Assembly (NCBI GenBank): GCA_015295805.1
Contig: DVEF01000047.1
Location: 1 to 53,663 of the forward strand
Reading direction: 5' to 3'
Source: Geminocystis sp. M7585_C2015_104
GTDB lineage: Bacteria > Cyanobacteriota > Cyanobacteriia > Cyanobacteriales > Cyanobacteriaceae
Length of the DNA: 53,663 nt
Below, in pieces: positions 30,395 to 48,931 of the stretch. The first letter of the stretch is position 1; every line of letters starts with the position of its first letter. Under the pieces are notes generated by a model. It searched no databases, was not told where the DNA came from, and saw nothing but the letters and a program-made list of their open reading frames with translations. Position numbers and translations under genes: made by a program.

Positions 30395-33300
30395 ATGAAT
30401 CCACTCAATCGAGCCCATCAACAGTTGTTAGATGAAGCCCCCGAACTTTTGCAAGAAATAGAAAATAAACTAATAGGCTTACAAGCCCATGGGGCAAACC
30501 AGTCAGAAGATTTACTCCAAGCAATTCAATCCCTGAAACAAAAACTGGCCAATGGGAGTTTAATTCATTTTACCAGGGCGGTACACCGACTGGAAAATCT
30601 GTTGAAAAAATTGTTTTGCAAGAACATTACAATAGACACTCCCTTAGAGGGGTTGTTGTTAGAGGCGTTCGATTGTATAGCCATTCCCCTAAGGGAAAAC
30701 CTCAAGTCAGGCAAGCTCCCCCCACCGTCTCAAACAGTAGATGGGAAAATAGAAGAAATCTGGAGACAACTAGAGGCCAAGTTGGAAGAAGGGGAAAATA
30801 ACAATGGTTCTCATTTTGATGGAGCCAGTTCCGATACAGACATAGTAGCAGAATTGTTTAGGGGGGATGTGGCTCGAATAATTGACAACCTGAGGGGATT
30901 AGTGGCGCAAGAGGAGGGAGACAGTTACCAGAAAAGACAACAGTTACTCCACTGGTTAGACAGCCTGGAAAGCATTGCACAGCTGACGGAATTGCCGGGC
31001 TTTTCTTTGATTGTCTCTATAGCAAAAGGGGCACTGGAAAAAAACCCCCACCAGGTTGCTACCATTACCTCCCTCCTGATAGAGGATTTGGAAAAGAGTC
31101 TAACGGCAGTGTTGGCGGGAGACAGACGACAGGGAGGTGCGCCTTCTAGTCGTCTTTTGGCCTTGAATGAGTCAGAAACACCCGAAAATACACAACCGTT
31201 AGAGAAAGGGGGAAGGGGAACGGAAAGGGAGTCTTACATGTCAGACACGGTTAGCATAGACGAGCCGATGTATGAACTGTTCATGGCAGAAGTGCCGGAA
31301 TTACTGGATACTATTGAACACGGCCTACTTTCTCTGAAAACAGAAAAGACTACTGCCCGTGTCAACGAAATCATGAGGGCAGCCCATTCCCTCAAGGGAG
31401 GGGCAGCAAGTGTCGGCTTACACGGCATAAAAGACTTGGCACACCGTCTGGAGGATTATGTCAAGGCCCTTTTCAGTGAACAAGTAGTATTTGATGACGA
31501 ACTAGAATCCCTCTTCCTGTCTGCCTTTGATTGTCTCAAAAATGCCCTTTTGGAACAACAGTCCACTGGCAAATACTCCCACCGATGGCAGGAGGAAGCA
31601 GAGACTGTCTGGGCACAACTGGAAGCCAAATTGGGAAGTGTGGAAGACATCCCAGACTTTATCCCCTCCTCTAGTGATTTGGGAGTAGACATGGTTAAGT
31701 CTCTCTTTGAGGTGGAGGTACACCAGATTATTCAACAACTACAAGAGCATCTAGAAAATACCCCTACCTCCGAACTCCCTGTGGTTGTATCCCCCATCCT
31801 GGATGTCCTCATGGGCCTGGGTGAATTGGGCAATGAGGAGAAGTTAAAGAACATTGTCAATAAGACGAGGGAGGATATTGCGAATGATAATCAAAAGGCG
31901 GGAGAAGCCATAAGCCAACTAATAGGAGAGTTGATAAGTCTGAGAGAAAAACACATTGGTGGAAAAGCCCCAACAGAGGAAACCACCGACTGGCAGGATT
32001 TGACTGAAGAGGTAAACAACAGTTTAGAGGAGATAGAGGAAACTGGAGACATAACTGGAAGTATGGAAGAACAAACCCCCGACTTTTTATCCCTGTTAGG
32101 GGATTCCCAAGAGTCTTCATCCGCCCCATCCAGTCAACAGTCTCAACAGGAGGAATTGCAGGCTCAGTCCTATCAATTTTTCCTGGAAGAAGCACCAGAA
32201 TTAATTGCCCTTATTGACAATAATCTGGAAAGGGTATTCCAAAGCCGCAATATAAATGAAATCAACGAAGTAGCCAGGGCAGCCCATTCTCTTAAGGGGG
32301 GTGCGCGCACTGCAGGGTTGGAAGACTTGGCCACCATTGCCTTGAGGGTGGAAAAAAGTCTAAAGGCCCTATTCAATGAGAATATACCCCTGGACGAGAA
32401 AATGCAAGCCTACCTGCGGGAGATTTATCACCTACTGCGGGAGGCAGTCTTGGCTAGGGTAGAGGGCAGAGATTTTGACGAAAAAACAGCAGCAGAGGTA
32501 GTTAACAGCAAGTGGGCAGAATTTGAGAGGGAATACGGCGAGGAAATAGCTAAGGCAGAAGAATATTTGCCCTCATCTAGCGATTTGGGGGTGGATATAG
32601 CCTCTTCTCTGTTTGAAATTGACGTGCCCCAAGGGATTGCCACCCTACAGACGGCCTTAGAAACCGAAGATGACGCCACCCTGATAAATACAGTCACCAG
32701 CCAACTGGAGGTATTCACCGGTTTTGGGGAAATGTTGGGCCTCCCCGGCTTTGTCTCCATCTGTCAGACGGCACAACAGGCTTTGCAACAATATCCCCAG
32801 AGGGTGAGAGAAATAACCTCCACCTTGATAGAAAACCTACAACAGGCACAGGCGCAAGTATTGGCCGGTGATCGCACTAGGGGAGGAGAGGTGAGTGCCT
32901 CCCTACGGGCATTCTTGTCCACCCCAGCTTCGCCTACTGTCGAAATAGACGAAAAACCAGTAGATACCAACGATCCAGCCTATGGTTTCTTTGTAGAAGA
33001 GGCGCCGGAATTGCTACAAATCATCGAAAGTGGCCTACTCACCCTCCGGGAGGAAAGAAATACGGCCAAAATACACGAGATGATGCGCGCCGCCCACTCC
33101 ATAAAAGGGGGTGCAGCCAGTGTGGGGTTAGAAGCCATCAAAACCATCGCCCACCAACTGGAAGACATCTTTAAAGTCCTTTACAATCCAGAAGTAGCCA
33201 TAGATACCGAATTAGAAACCTGGCTTTTGGAAGGGTATGACTGTCTGGCTAATGCCCTCAACACTCAAATAGAAACAGGACAATATAACCCACAGGAAGC

Positions 33301-36300
33301 ACTGGCCAGGGCGGAACAGGTCTGGGCTAAAATCAAAACTAAATTGGGGTTATATCTGGAGAGGGCAGACGATTACATACCCTCCTCTAGTGACTTGGGC
33401 ATAGACATGGTGAGATCCATGTTCGAGGTAGATGTAGCCCAAGAGTTAGACCGTCTAAAAGCCGTAACCGCCAACCCCGCTGGCTTACCCCTGGCAGGGG
33501 AATTAAGGGCCACTTTGGAGGTATTTGCAGGATTCGGGGAAATGCTCAACCTCCCCGGCTTCGCCGAAATTGCCCATCTGGGTTTGAAAGCCGTCGAACT
33601 ACAACCAGACCAGGTAATCAACATAATAAATGTAGTAGTTCGAGATGTAGAAAAAGCAAGAGAGGCAGTACTAAAGGGCGACCGCAAACAGGGAGGCCAA
33701 CCGAGTGAAGAATTAAAACGTCTGGCAGAGGGCAAAAGCCTGGTGGAAGCAGAGGAAATTCCTGAGACTAGTGGGGATGAAGTACTTGGCGAGGTTTTGG
33801 CCACCCCTGAGGAGATTTTCCCACCCATATACAGAGAAACCCAAACTGTCGCTAATCCTCTGTCTGAGGTTCATCTTTCTACAATAGAAATACAGAACCT
33901 GGAAAAATTGGACCAAGGTATCCCAGAAGAAGGAGAGGAAGAAAACCTGCCAGAGCTGGAGGAACTCCTCTCCGCTACCATAGAGGTGGACAAAAGTGAA
34001 ACCATCCCCTCCATCAGTGAAATACTGGCACCCCCCTCAGAAGAAGAGGAGAAAACAGAGGAAATCTCTCCACAACCTCCGGAAGAATTGTCGGAAGAAG
34101 TGCCTTCTCTAGAAGAAGTCTTCGGTGACATATCTGAAATAATTAAGGCACCAGAAGAAACCCCCCCAGAAGAAACAAAAGCACCAGCCCAACCCACCAT
34201 TCCCGAAAGTCATAAGGAGGAGGTAATTATCCTATCGGAGGCGGAAAGAGAAGCCCTTTTGCGGGCGGAGGGGGTAGAAGAAACTGTTGAATCCATCACC
34301 AGAATCTATGAAAAACTACCCCCCGTGAGTGATATTGCCCAAATTTCTCCCAAAAAGGATGATTCTTCTTCCAAAAAGCCTATTGGGGAAGAAAAAATAC
34401 AGGAAACAAAAACAGCGCCCCCCACTCCTAAAACCAATTTAACCATACGGGTGGACCTGGAACGCCTAGAAAGGATGAATAACCTCATTGGCGAATTGTC
34501 CATCACCCGTAACAGTTTATCCCTGCAAAACGAGAAACTACAAAGTGCCCTCAGAGAATTACTCTCCCGCTTTTCCCAATTCCAACAGACGGCAAATGCG
34601 CTAAGGGATTTGTCCGACAGAATGTTAGTCTCCCCCTCCAGATTTACCCCCGGGAAGGGTCGTCGCCCAACAGAGGCTTTAAACCTCTCTAGCGAGGAAG
34701 GGGAAGACACCAACCTAACTGCCGCCTTTGACGTGTTGGAAATGGATCGCTATGACGATCTTTATAGCGTAACTCAGGCACTCCTGGAACAAATAATCCA
34801 GTTAGAAGAGGCGGTGGAGGACATTGCCCTATATGCCTCCCAATCCGGACAAACCGTAGACAGTCAGAAACAGATGCTCAACCGCCTGCGGGATGAGTTG
34901 ATGTGGGCCAGAATGCTTCCCCTGGGAGAAATCCTCAACCGCTTTCCCCGTGTTTTGCGAGATTTGTCTGTTAAATACAACAAAAAGGTCAATCTTAAAC
35001 TTAGTGGGACTAATGTACTGGTAGATAAAGCTGCCCTAGAGAAATTATATGACCCCCTGGTGCACCTGATCCGCAACGCCTTCGACCATGGCATAGAAAC
35101 CCCAGAATTACGCAGACAAAGAGGGAAACCCGAGGTGGGCACCATTGAAGTTAAAGCATACCATCAGGGTAATCAGACCATCATTGAGGTAAGGGATGAC
35201 GGCGGTGGAATAAATCTGGCCAAGGTGGGACAAAAAGCCGTAGAAAAAGGTCTTCTTACCCCTGAACAGTTGGCAGTTATAAGCAAAGAAAACCTACTGG
35301 ACTTGATTTTTGAGCCCGGTTTCTCTACCGCCCCCAGTGTCACCGAAATTTCCGGGCGTGGTGTGGGTTTAGATATTGTTCGTTCTCAACTGCGCTCTCT
35401 TAAAGGTACAATCACCGTAGACTCAGAAGAAGGAAAAGGTACTACCTTCACCCTCAGACTTCCCCTCACTCTCACCATCGACAAACTGCTAGTACTATCC
35501 GCCGCTAATCTCCTATATGCAGTGCCTTCTGATAACATTTTTGAAATCCTAGTACCTGAAAATCATCAACTAAAAGTCTCTGCCAACCAGCGCTGGCTCC
35601 ACTATGAAAACCGTGTCATCCCCCTCTACTCCCTCGCCGAACTACTCCACTACAACTGCTACTTGCCTCCCACGAATGTAACCCAGAGTGTGGAAATACT
35701 CCCCACTCCCCCAGAATGGAATAAGCCGCTACTATTGATAGGACTGGGGCAGGAGTTGTTTGCTATCGAGGTGGAGCACCTGGTGAGCGAACAAGAATTA
35801 GTGGTCAAGCCCTTTGGCACTGCTATTACTGCCCCCAAATATACCTACGGTTGTACTATATTAGGTGATGGAACCCTCATTCCCGTCATCAACCCCGTTA
35901 TTCTCATCTCTCAGCAACTCCAACTCAACCAGCCTACCACTCCAATCCCCATCAGGAGAGAAAGAGAGGAAATCCCAGCCCCCTTTTCCACCCCCGTCCA
36001 CCGCAACGGCCATACTACTAGCACTGCCACTGTTGCCAAGCCCTTCCAGATAGAGACTATACTTGTAGTAGATGATAGCGCAGCCATGAGGAGGACTTTG
36101 GCTCTGTCCCTAGAAAAGGCGGGGTATCGGGTGGTACAAGCTAAAGACGGAAAGGATGCCTTAGAGCAACTGTTAAAAGGCTTGAATGTTAATTTGATTA
36201 TCTGTGACATTGAAATGCCCAACATGAATGGTTTTGAATTCCTCAGTCAAAGAAGACGTCATCCCGAGTTGAGTAGAATCCCCGTAGCTATGTTAACCTC

Positions 36301-36421
36301 TCGCAGTAACGAAAAACACCGTCAATTGGCCACCCATCTTGGCGCCAATGCCTACTTCACTAAACCTTATATTGAACAGAAATTCCTTGAGTCTATCCGC
36401 AACCTCTTAGCACAAAAGTAA
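30395..36421 (+). CDS. CheA-like hybrid histidine kinase with four Hpt-type modules and a C-terminal receiver
   Basis: A 2008-residue chemotaxis-type kinase like those controlling type IV pilus motility in cyanobacteria (PilL/TaxAY class). Three near-identical modules each carry an Hpt domain with RAAHS(L/I)KGGA: His331, His631 and His901. An N-terminal module keeps His64 but has RAVHRLENLLKKL instead of the KGG motif, so it looks degenerate. An acidic Pro/Glu-rich linker (about 1120-1340) leads to the CheA dimerisation helices (RLERMNNLIGELSITRNSL), the HATPase (HLIRNAFDHGIE), a CheW-like domain, and a receiver domain from about 1887 with phospho-acceptor Asp1938 (LIICDIEMPNMNG). No cheW, cheY or receptor gene is adjacent. 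Confidence 0.93.
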   Translation: MNPLNRAHQQLLDEAPELLQEIENKLIGLQAHGANQSEDLLQAIQSLKQKLANGSLIHFTRAVHRLENLLKKLFCKNITIDTPLEGLLLEAFDCIAIPLRENLKSGKLPPPSQTVDGKIEEIWRQLEAKLEEGENNNGSHFDGASSDTDIVAELFRGDVARIIDNLRGLVAQEEGDSYQKRQQLLHWLDSLESIAQLTELPGFSLIVSIAKGALEKNPHQVATITSLLIEDLEKSLTAVLAGDRRQGGAPSSRLLALNESETPENTQPLEKGGRGTERESYMSDTVSIDEPMYELFMAEVPELLDTIEHGLLSLKTEKTTARVNEIMRAAHSLKGGAASVGLHGIKDLAHRLEDYVKALFSEQVVFDDELESLFLSAFDCLKNALLEQQSTGKYSHRWQEEAETVWAQLEAKLGSVEDIPDFIPSSSDLGVDMVKSLFEVEVHQIIQQLQEHLENTPTSELPVVVSPILDVLMGLGELGNEEKLKNIVNKTREDIANDNQKAGEAISQLIGELISLREKHIGGKAPTEETTDWQDLTEEVNNSLEEIEETGDITGSMEEQTPDFLSLLGDSQESSSAPSSQQSQQEELQAQSYQFFLEEAPELIALIDNNLERVFQSRNINEINEVARAAHSLKGGARTAGLEDLATIALRVEKSLKALFNENIPLDEKMQAYLREIYHLLREAVLARVEGRDFDEKTAAEVVNSKWAEFEREYGEEIAKAEEYLPSSSDLGVDIASSLFEIDVPQGIATLQTALETEDDATLINTVTSQLEVFTGFGEMLGLPGFVSICQTAQQALQQYPQRVREITSTLIENLQQAQAQVLAGDRTRGGEVSASLRAFLSTPASPTVEIDEKPVDTNDPAYGFFVEEAPELLQIIESGLLTLREERNTAKIHEMMRAAHSIKGGAASVGLEAIKTIAHQLEDIFKVLYNPEVAIDTELETWLLEGYDCLANALNTQIETGQYNPQEALARAEQVWAKIKTKLGLYLERADDYIPSSSDLGIDMVRSMFEVDVAQELDRLKAVTANPAGLPLAGELRATLEVFAGFGEMLNLPGFAEIAHLGLKAVELQPDQVINIINVVVRDVEKAREAVLKGDRKQGGQPSEELKRLAEGKSLVEAEEIPETSGDEVLGEVLATPEEIFPPIYRETQTVANPLSEVHLSTIEIQNLEKLDQGIPEEGEEENLPELEELLSATIEVDKSETIPSISEILAPPSEEEEKTEEISPQPPEELSEEVPSLEEVFGDISEIIKAPEETPPEETKAPAQPTIPESHKEEVIILSEAEREALLRAEGVEETVESITRIYEKLPPVSDIAQISPKKDDSSSKKPIGEEKIQETKTAPPTPKTNLTIRVDLERLERMNNLIGELSITRNSLSLQNEKLQSALRELLSRFSQFQQTANALRDLSDRMLVSPSRFTPGKGRRPTEALNLSSEEGEDTNLTAAFDVLEMDRYDDLYSVTQALLEQIIQLEEAVEDIALYASQSGQTVDSQKQMLNRLRDELMWARMLPLGEILNRFPRVLRDLSVKYNKKVNLKLSGTNVLVDKAALEKLYDPLVHLIRNAFDHGIETPELRRQRGKPEVGTIEVKAYHQGNQTIIEVRDDGGGINLAKVGQKAVEKGLLTPEQLAVISKENLLDLIFEPGFSTAPSVTEISGRGVGLDIVRSQLRSLKGTITVDSEEGKGTTFTLRLPLTLTIDKLLVLSAANLLYAVPSDNIFEILVPENHQLKVSANQRWLHYENRVIPLYSLAELLHYNCYLPPTNVTQSVEILPTPPEWNKPLLLIGLGQELFAIEVEHLVSEQELVVKPFGTAITAPKYTYGCTILGDGTLIPVINPVILISQQLQLNQPTTPIPIRREREEIPAPFSTPVHRNGHTTSTATVAKPFQIETILVVDDSAAMRRTLALSLEKAGYRVVQAKDGKDALEQLLKGLNVNLIICDIEMPNMNGFEFLSQRRRHPELSRIPVAMLTSRSNEKHRQLATHLGANAYFTKPYIEQKFLESIRNLLAQK

Positions 36422-39178: not shown

Positions 39179-39667
39179 CTAGAATAGGCCCAATGTCAGG
39201 GATTTGTCAAGAGGGAAAACAGCACCAGCACCTAACCAGAGGGTTACCAGGACGCCAAAGAGAAAAACTGTCATGGCAACAGGGCGACGGAAGGGGTTTT
39301 GGAATTTGTTAACACTCTCGATGAAGGGCACCAACATCAACCCCAGGGGAATCGCCGCCTGACAGGCAATGCCCAAGAGCTTATTAGGAATGATTCGCAA
39401 AATCTGGAAGACAGGGTATAAATACCACTCAGGAAGGATTTCCAATGGGGTAGCAAAGGGATCAGCCGGTTCACCTACCATAGCTGGATCCATTACTGCC
39501 AAGCCCACAATCAGTCCTAGGGTCCCCAACATGCAAATGGGGAACATATATAGTATATCGTTAGGCCAGGCAATTTCCCCATAGTAGTTGTGACCCATAT
39601 TTTTGGCCAATTTGGCCCTTAATTTTGGGTCAGACAAATCTGGTTTTTTATACAGCTTGCTGGACAT
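39179..39667 (-). CDS. petD: Cytochrome b6f complex subunit IV
   Basis: A 162-residue subunit IV, the C-terminal half counterpart of cytochrome b. It starts [20 protein letters not shown], has three membrane helices, and carries the quinol-site motif [14 protein letters not shown]. All expected segments are present ([14 protein letters not shown]-like N-terminal stretch seen as [20 protein letters not shown]). It follows petB after about 54 bases on the same strand. Intact, in contrast to petB. Confidence 0.97.
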
Positions 39668-39721: not shown

Positions 39722-40390
39722 TTATAAGGGACCAGAGATCCCCTGTTTCCGGATAAGAATGAAGTGCAACAACATGAAAACGGCCATCAACCAGGGCAGT
39801 ACAAAGGTGTGGATGGTATAGAAACGAGTGAGGGTAGCCTGTCCTACACTAGCCCCACCTCTCAACAACTCCACCAACTGGTCACCTACCACCGGTATAG
39901 CGGCGGGCACCCCTGATACGATTTTAACCGCCCAGTAGCCTACCTGATCCTATGGCAGGGAGTACCCTGTTACACCAAAGGATACAGTAATAACGGCCAT
40001 AATTACCCCCACAATCCAAGTCAACTCGCGGGGTTTTTTGAAACCGCCAGTCAAATATACTCGGAATACGTGGAGGATGAGCATCAACACCATCATGCTA
40101 GCAGACCAACGATGGATGGAGCGAATCAGCCACCCAAACTTCACCTCTGTCATAATATACTGGATAGAGCTAAAGGCCTCCGCCACCGTTGGTTTGTAAT
40201 AGAATGTCAGGGCAAAACCCGTGGCAAATTGGATGAGGAAGCAAGTTAGAGTGATACCCCCCAGACAGTAAAAAATGTTCACATGGGGGGGCACATACTT
40301 GCTGGCGATGTCGTCGGATATGGCGTCCAAATCTACCCTTTCGTTAAACCACTTGTATATGGGTGAGTCTGTTACCTGCTTTGTAAACAT
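39722..40390 (-). pseudogene. petB: Cytochrome b6 with an in-frame amber codon at Trp147
   Basis: Over 669 bases the frame matches cytochrome b6 from [10 protein letters not shown] to [10 protein letters not shown] at the family's 222 residues, with no indel. Codon 147 reads TAG (39950-39952) where the conserved sequence GYSLPWDQVGYW requires TGG; this is a single G-to-A change on the coding strand. The first 146 residues hold Cys42 (NIFYCLGG, heme c attachment) and heme ligands His93 and His107. The second ligands His194 and His209 lie after the stop, so a truncated product could not hold the b hemes. petB should be essential for photosynthetic electron flow, so the change may be a sequence error, a real lesion, or read-through. 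TAG is also used as a normal stop in this window (petD, psaJ). Confidence 0.93.
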
Positions 40391-47425: not shown

Positions 47426-48931
47426 CTATTTGGGGGACACTATTGTATAAACATTAAAGCCGCCACGGTTGCCACGAAGGTCATTTTCTAGGGTGGATGC
47501 ATCGAGGGAGGTAATTGTTCCAGTGGCATTATAGATAAAACAAACCAGGGTTTTTAGATTGGGGTATTCTCGATAGCTTTCAAAATCTTCGGCCAGTTGA
47601 CGAACTATTCCTGCCCTTGTAGTATTCCCCCTGGGGTATTTAATTTCCACAAGAATTCCATGAGAAGGGATAGCAAAGTCAACACGACTATTTCTCCCGG
47701 CATGATTGGATATATCCACTTCCCTTCTTACATCATTGAAAAATAATATTAGGAGAATATGAAATAATTTTTGGACATCCCTCTCCTCTTGAAGGGAGAA
47801 ATTATAATTACTAGTAAACCCCTCGGCAATAGCCGGAAATCTTCTGCACAGGTTTATTATACTATCAACAGCAGAATCATGGGTTAGTTTAGCAGGACAT
47901 TGCAGCAATTGAATTTCCTGTTTAAGGGCCCTTATAATTCCCTCTAATTCTTGTTTTAATTGAGTGAAGAAAGAATTCTGGAATGCCTCAATACAGGACA
48001 ATAACTCTTGTGTGGAATCCTGGATATTACTGTGGACAATTTCCCGTAATTGCTGTTGTAATTGAGTGGGGAGAGAGTTTTGAAAAGCTTCAATGGGTGG
48101 CAAAAATTGATTGGATATGACTTCTTGGAGCTGATTTTGTATCCGGGGAGGGAGGTAATTTTGGATAATCCCTTCTAATTCCTGTTGCAGTTGATTGGGT
48201 AGACATTCTTCCAGGAGACTGAACCTGTGGTATAATTGGTTTAACAAGTGTTGTATATTAGAGATGGTTTCTGTTAATTGTCCAATACTTTCAGACAAGT
48301 TTTGTTGGAGATTAGGGATGGAATTTTCTGGGGAATTCAGGTGAGATAACAACTTATTCAGTGAGGGCTGAATATTGGCGTTAAACTCCTCAATTCTGCG
48401 GGAAATAATTTCAACATCCTTTTTTATAATTGTACTAATAAATTCTTCCAAGCCTCCGATTCTTTGTAAAAACTGAACCTCCTGCCTTATAATGGTGTTG
48501 ATGCCCTCTTGTATCCCTTCAATTTTGGCAAAACCGGATTGTAGCTGATGGTTGAGACTGTTTTGGAGTTGCCGGTGGGTATCTTTCAATTCCTGGATGT
48601 TATCTCTCATGGGGGTTAGAGAAGAGCTAATGTTGTCTTTGAGATTTTCTTCTATAGGGGATATAAGGGGTGGTAGTTGTCTGTTTAATTCTTTTAATTC
48701 CGATATTGACTGAGAGACTTCCGACACCCGCTGGGAAAGAGTTTGAGCACGACGCCGTAAGGAGTAGTATCCCCCAGCCATTCCGGCCGTCAAGCCTCCC
48801 AGGGCAACACTGTTATTCTGAACACCAACCCCCACAACTCCACCAACTATGCCGGCAACCAGTAAAACCCCCCCCAGCCGCGAAAACATTGCCCGTATCA
48901 TGGATGCCTCGCTAGTCACTAATGGGCTCAT
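47426..48931 (-). CDS. Membrane-anchored coiled-coil protein with C-terminal PD-(D/E)XK nuclease-like domain
   Basis: A 501-residue protein I cannot match to a named system. Residues about 18-58 form one or two Gly-rich membrane helices (GGVLLVAGIVGGVVGVGV; ALGGLTAGMAGGYYSL). From 65 to about 345 is a long coiled coil, in which the unit IEAFQNS..TQL.Q.L..I recurs near 280-297 and 314-332, with a related unit at 244-256. From about 350 a compact domain follows with a PD-(D/E)XK core: Asp418 (RVDFAI), then Glu429 and Lys431 (LVEIKY), with Gln445 after them. Conserved residues suggest an active nuclease. An N-terminal membrane anchor plus cytoplasmic nuclease is a layout seen in some defence effectors; that role is inference. 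Confidence 0.8.
   Translation of the reverse strand: MSPLVTSEASMIRAMFSRLGGVLLVAGIVGGVVGVGVQNNSVALGGLTAGMAGGYYSLRRRAQTLSQRVSEVSQSISELKELNRQLPPLISPIEENLKDNISSSLTPMRDNIQELKDTHRQLQNSLNHQLQSGFAKIEGIQEGINTIIRQEVQFLQRIGGLEEFISTIIKKDVEIISRRIEEFNANIQPSLNKLLSHLNSPENSIPNLQQNLSESIGQLTETISNIQHLLNQLYHRFSLLEECLPNQLQQELEGIIQNYLPPRIQNQLQEVISNQFLPPIEAFQNSLPTQLQQQLREIVHSNIQDSTQELLSCIEAFQNSFFTQLKQELEGIIRALKQEIQLLQCPAKLTHDSAVDSIINLCRRFPAIAEGFTSNYNFSLQEERDVQKLFHILLILFFNDVRREVDISNHAGRNSRVDFAIPSHGILVEIKYPRGNTTRAGIVRQLAEDFESYREYPNLKTLVCFIYNATGTITSLDASTLENDLRGNRGGFNVYTIVSPK

Follow-up and report, generated by a model that had tools for sequence, protein, structure and literature searches.

Cytochrome b6, encoded by petB, is represented by the NCBIfam family NF002990 and by the 222-residue PDB chain 7r0w_I. 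Four histidines of the protein (93, 107, 194, and 209), which we take to be the heme ligands, are situated in helices B and D, and a protein that lacks helix D, and His194 and His209 along with it, should leave no b6f complex. Photosynthetic growth requires this complex, and the essentiality of petB is general knowledge. Stop-like single-base artefacts or minority alleles are known to occur in draft genomes. As for changes made at the mRNA level, A-to-I editing by TadA occurs in bacteria, with UACG as the motif (PMC12214031), and editing of UAG stop codons has been reported for filamentous fungi (PMC11156358). The excerpted part of PMC12735163 contains no statement of petB essentiality.

The petB locus and its internal TAG

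In the window, which is the whole stretch of 53,663 nucleotides analysed from Geminocystis sp. M7585_C2015_104, petB is located on the minus strand at 39722..40390 and consists of 222 codons plus a terminal TAA. Translation of this segment gave a frame with zero indels and one internal TAG, at codon 147 (39950..39952, minus strand; CTA on the plus strand). When the TAG was read as tryptophan, the product matched NF002990 with 380.9 bits (cut-off 325) over residues 9-222, which is nearly the full length, and aligned over its whole length with 7r0w_I; all four histidines were found in the read-through frame. The locus is therefore like cytochrome b6 in its length of 222 and its end-to-end alignment, but differs from it by the TAG, which interrupts the reading frame. 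Only His93 and His107 precede the TAG, and His194 and His209 lie after it. The preliminary description of a petB that is full length save for a TAG at Trp147, with His194 and His209 beyond the stop, was thus borne out by the alignment.

The search for petB was extended to the whole assembly (2,821,766 bases in 108 contigs, with a completeness of 96.9% and a contamination of 0.02%), and the single match was the TAG-bearing locus. Hence, the TAG is present in the assembled sequence and no second petB copy is assembled; the second intact copy that had been proposed as a possibility was not found in these 108 contigs.

The other photosynthesis genes were also considered. In the window, petD, which encodes subunit IV (39179..39667, minus strand), cpcB, and cpcA are intact. 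The petA gene is present, with a Rieske gene 747 bases away on the same contig, and neither has an internal stop. Genes of the psbA/psbD type are present without internal stops, two of the five matches being partial, and genes of the psaA/psaB type, also without internal stops, are located on another contig, one match being cut at a contig start. The preliminary description had counted psa genes together with petD and cpc as intact; this held for petD and cpc in the window, whereas no psa gene was seen among the 22 window ORF proteins scanned. With the rest of the photosynthesis genes that were sought in place, the cell should need cytochrome b6, in line with the earlier expectation that it still depends on petB.

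Conservation of petB on both sides of the TAG

To place the TAG among its relatives, 88 petB loci were aligned, namely the M7585_C2015_104 locus, that of the congener (one other genome of the genus, and the sole one compared), 80 loci from a contig collection (the best 80 of 577 relatives), and six from the genome search. Codon 147 encoded tryptophan in 87 of the 88 loci, the sole exception being the M7585_C2015_104 locus, and none of the other 87, of which 80 are the best 80 of 577 relatives, contained a stop within petB. The codon was TGG in the congener and in all seven outgroup loci examined (L113-L117, L003, and L004), so that the consensus base at plus-strand position 39951 is T where the lineage has C. 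Across the phylum, petB matches were obtained in 202 of 386 genomes. Among the matches listed, a stop occurred only in M7585_C2015_104 and in one other genome, G350, in which the TAA stands directly upstream of the gene's own start; the two petB matches of genome G302 were overlapping, stop-free contig-end pieces on two contigs. Virus-borne copies were sought as well and rejected. In the viral contig collection, three stretches fitted a pattern and none encoded a relative, and the one match in the phage collection, at 38.4% identity, belonged to a Helicobacter phage record.

The congener PetB is the same at the other 221 residues. At the DNA level, 599 of the 669 petB positions agreed between the two genomes and 70 differed; 69 of the differences were synonymous, 48 of them upstream of codon 147 and 21 downstream, and the remaining one created the TAG. 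This last change is a transition, from G:C to A:T, and transitions made up 57 of the 70 differences. The part after the stop, codons 148-222 with the terminal TAA (39722..39949, minus strand), thus carried 21 synonymous and 0 non-synonymous differences. When the changes were polarised by the majority of the seven outgroup loci, at least 8 of the 21 were assigned to the M7585_C2015_104 lineage and 9 to the congener, and 4 were undecided. The post-stop part holds 54 synonymous and 171 non-synonymous sites. Given 8 synonymous changes, approximately 25 amino-acid changes would be expected in an unconstrained sequence (a rough estimate), compared to 0 observed. The post-stop codons show no sign of relaxed selection, and petB apart from the TAG is intact and strongly constrained. 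Therefore, the stop, if real, is young, or the downstream part is still translated.

Interrupted genes elsewhere in the genome

ORFs of 100 aa or longer in 450,498 bases of the congener were matched against 453,663 bases of M7585_C2015_104. A match required an identity of 60% or more and a coverage of no less than one half, and weaker ORFs were dropped. Under this definition, 168 congener ORFs (62,278 codons) were matched and 14 were flagged as interrupted. In eight of them, the stops were solely upstream of the likely start, the less certain case being a Mo-nitrogenase C-terminal domain gene (residues 83-153) with TGA at positions 20 and 32; in another two, the stops were solely in the final residues. 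One flagged ORF with a single TAG was rejected as a broken gene and taken as a non-coding frame, since it had no Pfam match and its differences fell mostly at codon position 2. The remaining three were petB, a heavy-metal P-type ATPase gene, and a glycosyltransferase-TPR gene. The ATPase gene (L138, C79:26241-28540) contains many frameshifting indels and is an ordinary decayed pseudogene, the congener copy being intact with 774 aa. The glycosyltransferase-TPR gene (L139, C79:42272-43520) carries a net insertion of 22 bases with a shift of frame, and its congener copy is intact.

In the reverse comparison, 174 M7585_C2015_104 ORFs (61,954 codons) led to five flagged in the congener, with no convincing broken gene among them. 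Within the set of 168 congener ORFs, no identifiable gene except petB owes its interruption to a single base alone. The two genes truly broken by indels indicate that real loss mutations happen in the M7585_C2015_104 genome; a single event of the petB type, in itself, cannot distinguish a consensus error from a mutation. A codon-usage scan for interrupted genes proved too weak and was replaced by the congener comparison: petB ranked 15th of 770 scored stops, and many of the stops ranked above it resembled neighbouring genes. The word CCATGG was considered as a mutation hot spot and dismissed, as its 334 occurrences were not clearly fewer than the 349 expected.

The origin of the TAG and other features of the window

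In 149 reciprocal-best ortholog pairs with matching C-terminal ends, TAG ends 53 M7585_C2015_104 genes, and in 20 of these 53 the congener has TAA or TGA at the corresponding position. The petD gene is among the 20, ending with TAG here and with TAA in the congener. Release factor 1 (RF1) is intact, with GGQ present. TAG is an ordinary stop in M7585_C2015_104, not a sense codon, and genome-wide TAG recoding, already doubted in the preliminary description, was rejected because TAG still terminates these genes. No tRNA with anticodon CUA, which had been put forward as a thing to look for, was present among the 35 tRNAs listed (Infernal, with anticodons by ARAGORN), and the tryptophan tRNA has the anticodon CCA. 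The same list lacks at least the tRNAs for Asp, Ile, Leu(UAA), and Ala(UGC); the tRNA set is thus incomplete, and a suppressor in the unassembled DNA is conceivable.

A real and fixed T at this base would mean that an essential photosynthesis gene has to be translated across a stop codon, and we know of no cyanobacterial case of this kind. Decoding of the TAG as an amino acid, whether by amber read-through, by an unassembled suppressor tRNA, or by A-to-I editing that turns UAG into UIG and has it read as Trp, would account for the undiminished constraint past the stop in a genome with no second petB, and the incomplete tRNA list leaves room for a suppressor. Bacterial A-to-I mRNA editing and fungal UAG-stop editing, as PMC12214031 and PMC11156358 describe them, lend it some precedent, and an inosine at the A of the TAG would restore tryptophan. 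However, the petB site is UAGG, without the UACG motif of TadA, and the congener has TGG there, as do the outgroups. The three lowest-energy folds place the target A within a paired stem, and none of them points to a consistently unusual RNA structure around the TAG (z of 0.17, -2.13, and -0.14). With the 53 TAG ends, the intact RF1, and 0 of 35 tRNAs carrying CUA set against it as well, we regard decoding of a fixed TAG as very improbable. The narrower proposal, in which recoding would be confined to codon 147 of the petB mRNA (by UIG editing or programmed read-through), with b6 synthesis being conditional and TAG elsewhere remaining a stop, is very improbable too. In a split cytochrome b6, the 146-codon frame would supply helices A-C and a separate start past the stop would supply helix D, and there is a GTG at codon 161 that is open to the normal end; nevertheless, by eye no clearly spaced ribosome-binding site precedes this GTG, 13 residues past the stop would be lost, and a petB stop occurs in none of the other aligned loci, so that we give this arrangement next to no weight.

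A real and very recent nonsense mutation, carried by most of the sequenced DNA, is unlikely, though second in probability among the readings. It might be tolerated temporarily, by wild-type chromosome copies in polyploid cells or by cells that were non-photosynthetic when sampled. The undecayed petB is what a very young stop predicts, a G:C to A:T transition is of the common kind, and the genome has other real pseudogenes. On the other hand, every other photosynthesis gene sought is present, a truncation at codon 147 should, as general knowledge has it, leave no functional complex, and a second allele was not assembled. The loss of b6 would fit ill with the kept photosynthesis genes and the undecayed petB, and an error or an unrepresentative allele would explain the TAG by known processes. 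We therefore think it probable (about 0.68) that the TAG is a consensus base error in a fragmented draft, or else a base that came from an unrepresentative, very recent allele carried by a minority of molecules. Against an error count the clean look of the rest of petB and of comparable neighbouring genes, and the fact that two other genes really are indel-broken. The locus resembles the single-base artefacts of draft genomes in that one base is concerned, no other decay is seen, the gene is essential, and the assembly is fragmented. If the error or unrepresentative-allele reading is right, the gene would be a normal cyanobacterial petB, with T instead of the lineage C at a single assembled base (plus-strand 39951), and the living cells would have TGG at codon 147 and produce cytochrome b6 at full length. 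The preliminary description had listed three readings and chosen none; consensus error is now in front, together with a nonsense allele that is very recent or confined to a minority, and one-site suppression or editing keeps a small share. An accident of sequencing or assembly, or else a mutation of very recent date, is most likely, and new biology is unlikely. The petB case illustrates that one base of a draft assembly can imitate the loss of an essential gene, and that a close relative and the substitution pattern help to narrow the possibilities for a lone stop codon.

Two further genes of the window were recorded. At 47426-48931 on the minus strand, a 501-aa protein is encoded, the C-terminal part of which matches the DpnII-MboI restriction endonuclease domain; its identity to the congener copy is only 64%, whereas the median for 170 ortholog pairs is 90%. 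At 30395-36421 on the plus strand, the window encodes a CheA-like hybrid kinase of 2008 aa in which Hpt, HATPase, CheW, and receiver domains are combined.
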